Part shown: positions 18,976 to 21,332 of the stretch, in pieces | Layout of the letters: every line of letters starts with the position of its first letter | How positions within the stretch are numbered: the stretch's first letter is position 1 | Source of the DNA: a virus | Length of the DNA stretch: 28,029 bases | Virus record (IMG/VR): IMGVR_UViG_3300013119_000147 | Coordinates: 1 to 28,029 of that record | Direction: 5' to 3' (one strand) | The notes under the pieces: model-generated | What the model was told of the DNA's origin: nothing | The model's database searches: none | What the model saw: the letters and a program-made list of their open reading frames with translations, nothing else | Position numbers and translations under genes: made by a program

Positions 18976-19182
18976 TTACTCCCAATAACCATTGGATTCA
19001 TTATACGCTGCAATTTCTTCATCATCTAATACAAACCTTCCGCAAGTGGTTTGAACAACTACTGCTTCCTTGGCTTCTACAAACCATGTCCCCTCATAGA
19101 AGTCATTAAGATAGTCAGTAAATCCTGCTGACGCATTAAAAGATGTTAATGCAATAACTGCTGCAACTAAAGTCTTTTTCAT
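18976..19182 (-). CDS. Small secreted protein, 68 aa
   Basis: The protein has a clear Sec signal peptide MKKTLVAAVIALTSFNASA with predicted cleavage after residue 19, leaving about 49 mature residues. The mature part is acidic and aromatic (GFTDYLNDFYEGTWF; ending YNESNGYWE) and has one Cys (TTCGRF), so it could form an intermolecular disulfide but no internal one. It is probably periplasmic or exported. The RBS AAAGGA precedes ATG 19182. It is the last gene before a terminator and follows another small secreted protein and the porin-like gene. Function unknown; a role in envelope modification or superinfection exclusion is speculation from context. Confidence 0.7.
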   Translation of the reverse strand: MKKTLVAAVIALTSFNASAGFTDYLNDFYEGTWFVEAKEAVVVQTTCGRFVLDDEEIAAYNESNGYWE

Positions 19183-19276: not shown

Positions 19277-19528
19277 TTATTGATTTGTTTGGTAATTAGA
19301 TGGGTAGAAAGTAGTGTCATTACTAATTTCATCGTCAAACTCATTCATCATGTTCTCTGCTTCTCTAGCGTACCAACGAGGATCCCATACATCATACCCG
19401 TTATAGGCAAACATACCGTTTCCGTATGGATTATTATCCGCTAATGGGAACTCCATATTGCTATCGCCGAAAAATGCCTGACTAGACGTTGCTGCCATAA
19501 TCATCATTACAGTTATAAGTTTTTTCAT
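19277..19528 (-). CDS. Small secreted Asn/Tyr/acidic-rich protein
   Basis: This 83-residue protein starts with a Sec signal peptide MKKLITVMMIMAATSSQA (cleavage after about residue 18). The mature part is rich in Asn, Tyr, Gly and acidic residues (NNPYGNGMFAYNGYDVWD, then PRWYAREAENMMNEFDDEI) and has no Cys. An excellent RBS AAGGAG precedes ATG 19528. The composition recalls small Asn/Tyr/Gly-rich secreted proteins of Gram-negative bacteria, so it may have come from a host; this is a weak impression. It lies after the porin-like gene and before another small secreted protein. Likely periplasmic; function unknown. Confidence 0.65.
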   Translation of the reverse strand: MKKLITVMMIMAATSSQAFFGDSNMEFPLADNNPYGNGMFAYNGYDVWDPRWYAREAENMMNEFDDEISNDTTFYPSNYQTNQ

Positions 19529-19680: not shown

Positions 19681-19688
19681 GGATAAAT

Positions 19689-19706
19689 GAGGAGGCGAAC
19701 CTCCTC
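19689..19706 (-). terminator. UUCG-capped hairpin after the porin-like gene
   Basis: Minus strand: perfect 7-bp stem GAGGAGG / CCTCCTC closed by a TTCG tetraloop, ten bases after the stop. The following ATTTATCC is only weakly U-rich, so it may be a partial terminator or an mRNA-stabilising 3' end rather than a full stop. Confidence 0.6.
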
Positions 19707-19715
19707 AAAAGTAGA

Positions 19716-20576
19716 TTAGAAGTTTAAAGTAAGTTTAGCTGAGATAATACCGTCTGTATCCTCTGTTTTTGAGTACTTATACTCCATAATACCACGTTCT
19801 AGCTTAGCAACATAAGTGTTTTTATCATTTTTATTAATAAGCTTACCTGTTAAGTCACCAACAGTAGTAGCTGAAGTTAAAATAACACCTTTTACTAATT
19901 TTCCGTTTGCTGCATTAGAGATATCCTCTAAAATGTCATCATCTTGTGTAACAGCTGAGGTATCTTCTACATCAATTAGAGCACCTGCAATACCAAAACC
20001 TCCAACTGTAGCAGAAGCAACTCCGCCTATATTAGTACCTACTGAAGTCTTTTGATATTCGCCATTTAAATCAACTCCGCCCTTAGATACTGAAGCTGAA
20101 ACAAAACGATCAGAATTAATTACATTTTGAACTTTAATGGCAACTCCACCAACTGTAGCACCGATATCGGCAGATGCGTTAGCGTCTCCAGAACCTTGCT
20201 GAACCGCAACATCTAAACCACCTAAAGAAGTAGCTAAACGCATCTTATTAGATGAAGCAGATTCCTTCTGTAAAAGACCTGCGCCGTTTTGACCTTGCCA
20301 TTTACCAAGTTTAGCGTCTAAACCTTCAATAGTAGTATTAACATATACTTCATTAAAAGTAATATTATCGCCTGCATCTACATTTTTAACTTTTGCAGTT
20401 ACAGTTGCAAGTTCTGCCTTACCTACGATTGCAAGATCAAGCTCTTGCGAGTATGTAGCAGCACCAGGATTACCGTCTGAGATAGTACCTTCATAATTAC
20501 CTGAGATAGATATATCAGCTAATGCAGATGTTGTTAAAGTTAGTGCTGCAACTGCAGCAATTAAGTTTTTATTCAT
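19716..20576 (-). CDS. Porin-like outer-membrane beta-barrel protein
   Basis: This 286-residue protein has a Sec signal peptide MNKNLIAAVAALTLTTSALA (cleavage after residue 20, before DISISGNYEG). The mature part is a series of alternating amphipathic strands (YSQELDLAIVGKAEL, MRLATSLGGLDVAVQ, KLVKGVILTSAT) joined by Gly/Asn/Asp turns, has no Cys, and ends in LTLNF: a C-terminal Phe after alternating hydrophobic residues is the sorting signal read by the Bam complex. It is shorter than typical trimeric porins (330-400), so it may form fewer strands or short loops. It should insert in the host outer membrane. The RBS AGGAAA precedes ATG 20576. Phage-borne porins are known from lambdoid prophages (NmpC, Lc), where they alter the host surface; finding one in a T5-like lytic module is unusual. 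Confidence 0.8.
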   Translation of the reverse strand: MNKNLIAAVAALTLTTSALADISISGNYEGTISDGNPGAATYSQELDLAIVGKAELATVTAKVKNVDAGDNITFNEVYVNTTIEGLDAKLGKWQGQNGAGLLQKESASSNKMRLATSLGGLDVAVQQGSGDANASADIGATVGGVAIKVQNVINSDRFVSASVSKGGVDLNGEYQKTSVGTNIGGVASATVGGFGIAGALIDVEDTSAVTQDDDILEDISNAANGKLVKGVILTSATTVGDLTGKLINKNDKNTYVAKLERGIMEYKYSKTEDTDGIISAKLTLNF

Positions 20577-20622: not shown

Positions 20623-21006
20623 CTAAAAAGGCATTATACTTCTGAACATACCTTGAGGACTAAAGTTCTTTCTCATACCTCCAACACTGTAATTCATAGT
20701 GTCCACCTGTTGATTTAGAACCTTCATTTGCTCATCCATATTGTGAGCATGTTTTTCCATTTTCTCGACACTGATATTCATTGTATCCATGTCTCGATTA
20801 ATGGACTCCATAGAATACGCAATTGTATCCATGTTCTGTCTAATACTGTGTAAATCTTCAGATCCTTGTTTGAAGGATTCTGTCCAAGATTCCATATGGC
20901 TATTAACAATTAACCCAGCATAGACAATTACTCCAGCAACTGCTAACTGTGCTGTTGTCTGTATCCATTGACACCATTTACTAGTGCAACTTGCTCCATT
21001 TGACAT
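20623..21006 (-). CDS. Membrane-anchored coiled-coil protein
   Basis: About 127 residues from ATG 21006 (MSNGASC), which has GGAG about ten bases upstream; the longer frame from 21042 lacks a good RBS. A membrane helix follows near 18-35 (AQLAVAGVIVYAGLIV), then about 70 residues of heptad-like coiled coil with repeated MDTM, ESIN and MEKM patterns. It overlaps the upstream HExxH gene. The anchor plus long coil suggests an inner-membrane oligomer reaching into either the periplasm or cytoplasm; function is unknown. It is the gene directly before the porin-like gene and in the same transcript. Confidence 0.7.
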   Translation of the reverse strand: MSNGASCTSKWCQWIQTTAQLAVAGVIVYAGLIVNSHMESWTESFKQGSEDLHSIRQNMDTIAYSMESINRDMDTMNISVEKMEKHAHNMDEQMKVLNQQVDTMNYSVGGMRKNFSPQGMFRSIMPF

Positions 21007-21277
21007 ATAGTTTATTCTCCATAGAATAAGCCTCATTTTCACAAAGCTTTCTACCTTGCTCTAATTGAGCTCTATGCGTCATTTCATGGCATATTGTTTT
21101 GTAAAAATCTTCCTCTAACATTTCAGCGTCGCTAACTTCAATAGACCCATCGGAATAACACCAACCCCACGCGTCTTCTAGTTCTACTACCTCAATATTA
21201 ACAGCTCCAGAAAGTTTGAGCTCATTATAGCAAAAAGACGCTATACCTAAAACTCTTTGGTCATTACTGTAAACCAT
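20981..21277 (-). CDS. Minimal HExxH (zincin-like) protein, 98 aa
   Basis: This 98-residue protein carries the zinc-metallopeptidase motif CHEMTH (His64, Glu65, His68) followed at 80-83 by ENEA, which could supply the third ligand, as in gluzincin-type or SprT/IrrE-like proteins. A short beta region (VNIEVVELED, GSIEVSD) precedes the active-site helix, as in minimal zincin cores. It lacks a signal peptide, so it is probably cytoplasmic. It is the first gene after a sigma70 promoter, with the RBS GGAG before ATG 21277, and is co-transcribed with the coiled-coil and porin-like genes. A proteolytic or DNA-associated role is possible; the target is unknown. Confidence 0.65.
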   Translation of the reverse strand: MVYSNDQRVLGIASFCYNELKLSGAVNIEVVELEDAWGWCYSDGSIEVSDAEMLEEDFYKTICHEMTHRAQLEQGRKLCENEAYSMENKLYVKWSKLH

Positions 21278-21303: not shown

Positions 21304-21332
21304 ATTATACCATAAAATGACCTTCATGTCAA
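21304..21332 (-). promoter_or_regulatory. Sigma70 promoter for the envelope island
   Basis: Minus strand: -35 TTGACA (21332-21327), 17-bp spacer, -10 TATAAT (21309-21304) preceded by G. Predicted start near 21297, about 20 bases before ATG 21277. It lies just downstream of nrdB, with no terminator seen between. Confidence 0.9.

Follow-up and report, generated by a model that had tools for sequence, protein, structure and literature searches.

A porin-like gene in a T5-like replication region

We analysed a 28,029-nucleotide stretch of viral DNA (IMG/VR record IMGVR_UViG_3300013119_000147), hereafter the window, and focused on an ATG-initiated open reading frame on the minus strand of this 28-kb viral record that encodes a 286-amino-acid protein. 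The N terminus, MNKNLIAAVAALTLTTSALA followed by D, reads by eye as a Sec-type signal peptide and is retained as such in complete relatives. The final residue is Phe in all 30 complete relatives, each of which also has a hydrophobic residue at position −3 (30/30), and Cys is absent from all 33 aligned rows of the family. A C-terminal Phe on the last strand is the usual assembly signal of outer-membrane barrels. The signal peptide, lack of Cys and terminal Phe singled out in a preliminary description of this DNA are all present and kept across relatives. The gene and its immediate surroundings are as follows (relatives are named by contig, as L or G numbers):

19716–20576, minus strand: barrel gene, encoding a 286-residue exported, porin-like protein with a predicted 18-stranded β-barrel (open reading frame, relatives, AF2 and VIA-align)
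20517–20576, minus strand: signal peptide, residues 1–20, assigned by eye; almost no variation at A20 among 33 relatives
19719–19748, minus strand: last strand and C-terminal Phe, residues 277–286
20623–21042, minus strand: upstream gene for a protein with a membrane segment and a coiled coil; translation probably begins at the ATG at 21006; L015 relative at 59%
20981–21277, minus strand: upstream gene for a small protein with HExxH (SprT-like, weak)
19277–19528, minus strand: downstream gene for a small exported aromatic/Asn-rich protein that recurs near the barrel gene in relatives
18976–19182, minus strand: downstream gene for a small exported protein; L001 relative at 47%

Co-directional genes around the barrel gene encode a D5-like transcriptional regulator, a two-piece NAD-dependent ligase, an SbcC/SbcD-like nuclease, a PolA-type polymerase, a DnaB-like helicase, a primase, NrdA/NrdB, ThyX and PhoH. 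The polymerase is nearest to those of T5-like Vibrio/Enterobacter phages at about 48% identity, which places the window phage, a marine one, in a distant T5-like lineage, and T5-like core genes are also present on the contigs of 8 relatives. The barrel gene sits on a viral genome, and the T5-like replication region proposed earlier is borne out by the D5-like regulator, split NAD ligase, SbcCD-like nuclease and T5-nearest polymerase. Positions 558–1328, where the T5-like replication block ends, encode a UDP-glucose dehydrogenase-like protein (phrog_9148). The exported protein encoded at 19277–19528 forms a family with L013:8371-8784, sharing the motif DNGxFAYNxxDFWDPRWYSxEFTNMVNEIDDE, and is duplicated in L013.

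A compact 18-stranded barrel is predicted

AF2 modelling from an alignment of 33 rows (A6), 30 of them complete, yielded a pLDDT of 86.1 and a pTM of 0.73; the same protein modelled with only four sequences reached a pLDDT of 29. DSSP assigns 18 strands to the AF2 model, in which all eight periplasmic turns consist of two residues each and alternate with outer loops of 2–7 residues, except for L3 (15) and L7 (22). The mature protein spends only 266 residues on these 18 strands, such that the earlier remark that 286 residues is short for a classical porin was correct but understated. Alternating amphipathic strands, also noted earlier, give a weak signal when the protein is read alone (lag-2 z 0.8) and emerge when hydropathy is averaged over the family (lag-1 z −2.5, lag-2 z 2.1) and in the predicted strands, where the hydropathy gap between strand faces is 2.36 versus 1.43 ± 0.24 when residues are permuted within strands (z 3.9, 0/5000).

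Structural searches consistently return porins. The top Foldseek matches in the PDB are OmpM1 (E 3.9e-8), MOMP (E 3.4e-7), OmpU and the R. blastica porin, and among viral models Foldseek retrieves two porin-annotated proteins of uncultured phages (E 1e-6 and 6e-5). VIA-align, run on the Foldseek candidates, ranks Campylobacter jejuni MOMP best (Z 19.4, rmsd 3.1 over 261 residues); MOMP, Occ/OprD, ChiP and AlgE together span Z 17.8–19.4 with rmsd 3.1–4.4 over 257–268 residues, and LamB follows at Z 16.2–17.5. The top of the list is thus filled by 18-stranded channels (Occ/OprD, AlgE, ChiP and LamB), and VDAC (283 residues) scores Z 14.9. Closure of the barrel is suggested by this match of the model to closed barrels. 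Because the model is confidently a barrel of 18 strands whose structural neighbours are porins and not virion proteins, the earlier porin call is right, and the protein very probably sits in the outer membrane of the host as a porin-like barrel.

The barrel defines an unnamed family under purifying selection

Relatives of the barrel occur in about 50 viral contigs, all IMG/VR scans together, many of them T5-like, with identities from 62% down to about 30%. Across ten pairs of barrel genes dN/dS is 0.13–0.36, and the frame is under purifying selection. On the same relatives' contigs the T5-like polymerase is 73–83% identical to that of the window as against 30–52% for the barrel, indicating faster evolution of the barrel than of the replication genes, though still under purifying selection.

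Sequence libraries offer no usable match. The best Pfam hit is ZirS_C at E 0.0036, under the cut-off; no porin family (Porin_1/Porin_4, OprD) matches any of the 33 members, and the Porin_4 profile is absent from the window. NCBIfam gives nothing significant for the barrel protein, PHROGs only weak scattered matches with no significant family for any of the 33 members, and a PDB sequence search a best E of 0.24. Queries with three different family members found no tblastn match in phage GenBank records, two genome scans limited to short patterns detected no bacterial relative, and the lambdoid porins NmpC and Lc show no relation to the barrel by sequence. The barrel represents an unnamed, very compact porin family outside Pfam, NCBIfam and PHROGs.

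Several relatives depart from the common form. In the L030–L032 clade the mature protein is only about 225 residues long, having lost most of L3 and L7 while keeping the rest of the barrel and the terminal Phe. L016:10001-10854 holds a copy of the L010/L011 barrel gene that loses its frame after 79 amino acids on an otherwise nearly identical contig, and is either a pseudogene or an assembly error. The L012 and L013 barrels are about 93% identical overall and diverge over the N-terminal 25 or so residues, a pattern suggestive of recombination in the signal-peptide region.

Two long loops and opposed charges may line the predicted pore

Two outer loops stand out in the model:

20253–20297, minus strand: loop L3, residues 94–108, between strands 5 and 6 (DSSP), motif NGxGLLQ, conservation 0.69
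19902–19967, minus strand: loop L7, residues 204–225, between strands 13 and 14, acidic motif TQDDGILGDISDA, conservation 0.78

Of the long loops, L7 shows the highest conservation, and it carries a net charge of −3 to −8 in all 33 rows, although it is reduced in the L030–L032 clade, and L3 tends to positive charge. In Occ channels, inward-folded L3 and L7 form the constriction (PMC3260308). Conserved acidic positions of the phage barrel, E29, D/E45, D47 and E64 on strands 1–4 together with L7, make up one side, and a conserved basic side lies on strands 15–17 (K245 in 27/27, K249, R261, and K270 in 29/30); R157 is basic in 33/33 rows. With faces assigned by hydropathy, the average composition of the lumen-side face is acidic (18% D+E, 8% K+R), and the whole protein is acidic across the family, with a net charge of −7 to −26. 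This predicted arrangement of opposed charges would be compatible with either cation or anion preference.

Predicted signals point to early transcription by the host

The flanks of the gene contain two candidate expression signals:

21304–21332, minus strand: predicted σ70 promoter above 20981–21277, 20623–21042 and the barrel gene, with 12/12 consensus positions, a 17-nt spacer and an extended −10 (TG)
19688–19707, minus strand: hairpin of 8 bp with a UUCG loop, 8 nt after the stop codon (−13.5 kcal/mol, z −3.3)

Exact σ70 sites number four in the window (26523, 21332, 17748 and 6877), all on the minus, coding strand, against 0.06 expected in shuffles, and likely mark early transcription units. 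In 7 of 25 relatives such a site directly precedes the barrel gene, at a distance of 95–115 bp. These predicted sites suggest early transcription of the barrel gene by host polymerase. An intrinsic terminator after the gene was considered and rejected: the hairpin is stable, but lacks a T run and is not listed by the terminator scan. It may instead mark an mRNA 3′ end.

Sulfur and nitrogen genes adjoin the barrel in several relatives

The window contains no DsrA, DsrC/TusE or AmtB, nor other island genes found in relatives (Fe–S/TusA, PurM), so what its island may hold is inferred from those relatives only. A DsrC-family gene exceeds the Pfam cut-off on 11 of 27 barrel contigs, and in L027 a TusE-like gene lies 159 bp upstream of the barrel. 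Most of the short DsrC-family copies read have one Cys and are TusE-like, whereas L013 and G003 encode a two-Cys DsrC. For this reason we rejected DsrC/TusE alone as proof of a sulfur-oxidizing host (PMC8190135); that a sulfur-oxidizing host is likely follows rather from rDsrA and from the two-Cys DsrC of L013 and G003. rDsrA scores above the NCBIfam cut-off on 4 of 18 records tested, and lies 102 bp downstream of the barrel in L023 and about 0.9 kb away in L013. The gene order in L023 is TusE-like, exported proteins, barrel, rDsrA, TusA, NifU_N-type scaffold, ferredoxin and A-type Fe–S carriers, and the L023 contig also encodes the D5-like regulator and a polymerase that shares 83% identity with that of the window; in L013 the order is PurM-like, barrel, exported protein, two rDsrA, Fe–S genes, TusA-like and DsrC. 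Conversely, 9 of 27 rDsrA-bearing viral contigs also carry the barrel, a fraction that reaches 7 of 10 among those of at least 15 kb, several of which are near-copies from one sample.

The sulfur cassettes themselves span L013:8977-13795 and L023:7097-10278 and comprise rDsrA (twice in L013), TusA, a NifU_N scaffold, ferredoxin and two A-type Fe–S carriers, with DsrC in L013. Phages carrying dsrA are known from SUP05 bacteria (PMC8190135), and together with rDsrA in the relatives this suggests a SUP05-type, gammaproteobacterial host group. By gene content, the relatives' sulfur genes would tie the barrel family to sulfur phages of such hosts.

Nitrogen and purine genes also recur. AmtB exceeds the cut-off on 4 of 34 records and lies 0.1–0.6 kb from the barrel in three, 79 bp downstream in L043 and 0.3–0.6 kb upstream in L017 and L037; phage genes for this ammonium channel near the barrel gene include L037:6431-7594, L043:1985-3136 and those of G008 and G010. 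A PurM-like gene lies about 1.5 kb from the barrel in 8 loci. Many relatives have neither AmtB nor DsrA on the recovered sequence. On the barrel tree, dsrA-linked and amtB-linked members show no clustering beyond chance, and these neighbours thus seem to be exchanged around the barrel.

Exported repeat proteins rich in Asn, Gly, Trp and Phe (GSNWGPF repeats) are encoded within about 1 kb of the barrel at L010:11053-11466, L023:5682-6038, L024:9558-9920, L026:896-1258, L036:11041-11418 and L001:5346-5690, the last a Gly/Asn-rich variant. Their composition recalls sulfur globule proteins; one tested gave no Pfam match. The idea of a cassette of exported proteins around the barrel found no support as an enrichment, as a crude signal-peptide rule flags 13% of ORFs within 1.5 kb and 11% of those beyond 3 kb (p 0.40).

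A candidate solute channel for the infected cell

We propose that the barrel is an auxiliary, AMG-like solute channel. Host σ70 RNA polymerase would transcribe the gene, probably early; the infected cell would export the compact porin and insert the 18-stranded barrel into its own outer membrane, where L3 and L7 may narrow an open pore. By raising or altering permeability to small ions and nutrients, perhaps through ammonium uptake or exchange of sulfur anions, the barrel would let the cell feed phage DNA synthesis. In relatives it appears to travel in a variable island with genes for ammonium uptake (AmtB), purine synthesis (PurM) and sulfur oxidation (rDsrA, DsrC, TusA and Fe–S assembly). 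The computational analysis shows the signal for export, the fold of the barrel, its conservation across the family, the T5-like setting and the island neighbours of relatives; insertion into the host membrane, an open channel, early timing, the substrate and a SUP05-type host are inferred. We lean towards a solute channel that serves the metabolism of the infected cell as the probable function. The preliminary description had offered two roles, nutrient uptake and superinfection exclusion. The AmtB, rDsrA, DsrC/TusE and PurM neighbours favour the first, and nothing positive was found for the second.

Exclusion would have the barrel replace or crowd out a host receptor and present adsorbing phages with a nearly loop-free face that offers no grip, a role comparable to that of the phage-borne porins Lc and NmpC or, through a different mechanism, of T5 Llp. 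The short outer loops of the model, the strong predicted promoter and the precedent of T5, which carries an exclusion protein at the outer membrane (PMC9586334), are consistent with such a role. However, the short loops show no hypervariability, L7 and L8 rank with the most conserved elements, and dN/dS is consistently low; moreover, relatives' neighbours are metabolic with no receptor-binding gene identified among them, and a Cys-free barrel is not a lipoprotein. We consider exclusion unlikely. A plugged barrel, a surface protein with no open pore that binds a solute or an exported partner, would suit the recurrence of exported neighbours and the conserved, acidic, 22-residue L7, which could fill the lumen; yet the L030–L032 proteins keep the barrel without most of L3 and L7, which an open channel explains better, leaving this reading a slim chance. 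Slimmer still is the prospect that the barrel or nearby exported proteins aid lysis or stress the outer membrane. The membrane segment and coiled coil of the 20623–21042 product, with its weak Rz-like match (E 0.11), and other exported proteins nearby hint in that direction, but the nucleotide-metabolism and replication surroundings and σ70 promoter suggest early rather than late expression, the fold is typical of porins, and neither a holin nor an endolysin was identified adjoining the barrel. A virion or tail protein incidentally rich in β-strands would fit a phage genome but is barely credible given the signal peptide, terminal Phe, two-residue turns and 18-stranded porin match, with no significant PHROG family in 33 members.

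Taking the solute channel as our preferred reading, the place of the barrel beside sulfur-oxidation and ammonium-uptake genes in relatives suggests that these phages may rebuild the outer wall to supply the cell. More tentatively, and with somewhat less than even confidence, T5-like SUP05 sulfur phages may carry an outer-membrane module in which a minimal 18-stranded porin and Asn/Gly/aromatic-rich exported partners resembling sulfur globule proteins work with viral rDsrA, TusA, DsrC, Fe–S assembly and AmtB to admit ammonium or sulfur compounds while the cell is infected. With such a module, viral sulfur metabolism would gain its first outer-membrane component, and the barrel would perhaps be the smallest 18-stranded channel known. 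If the barrel conducts, phage manipulation of sulfur and nitrogen would cover what enters the cell and not only the enzymes inside. A minimal 18-stranded barrel would also be a useful channel scaffold.

Comparison with known systems

Lambdoid prophages and a small number of marine contigs are, to our knowledge, the main sources of virus-borne porins described so far, and no paper with the phrase 'phage-encoded porin' turned up in the open-access library searched. Lc and NmpC are 16-stranded OmpC-type porins borne by lambdoid phages. The barrel resembles them as a phage-borne outer-membrane porin, but has no Porin_1/Porin_4 match, has 18 strands in the model and belongs to a T5-like and not a lambdoid phage.

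The closest structural relatives are the Occ/OprD carboxylate channels of Pseudomonas and Campylobacter MOMP, which share the 18 strands (VIA-align Z 18–19, rmsd 3.1–4.0, about 260 residues). Occ/OprD also share a long L3 and L7, with inward folding known for Occ and loop length alone given by the model here. Occ/OprD lumens are lined by a basic ladder of Arg/Lys, and the conserved basic row on strands 15–17 may add to the likeness, yet the lumen-side face of the barrel has an acidic average. Unlike these channels, the barrel is phage-encoded, acidic overall and without a Pfam match; identity is 6–14% (6–12% for Occ/OprD), and the mature length is 266 residues versus 354–416 in the MOMP/Occ chains listed.

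Through Llp (PMC9586334), T5 likewise acts on the outer membrane of its host, but Llp is a small lipoprotein that blocks FhuA, whereas the Cys-free barrel has no lipobox cysteine. In Flavobacteriales viruses a viral porin gene, ompL, of unknown substrate lies beside glnK–amtB (PMC8115048). Likened by gene setting only, it too is a virus-borne porin by amtB from oxygen-depleted marine water, but one of Bacteroidetes viruses, with the gene attributed to Flavobacteriales. Like the dsrA/dsrC sulfur phages of SUP05 (PMC8190135, PMC4164917), relatives of the barrel carry rDsrA, DsrC and TusE-like genes; the main texts of those two studies make no mention of a porin or the outer membrane, and relative to these main texts the barrel adds an outer-membrane component to sulfur phages. 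Phage-borne porins as such are already known; what is new is the barrel family, the compactness of its 18 strands, its occurrence in T5-like sulfur phages and its position next to rdsrA and amtB.
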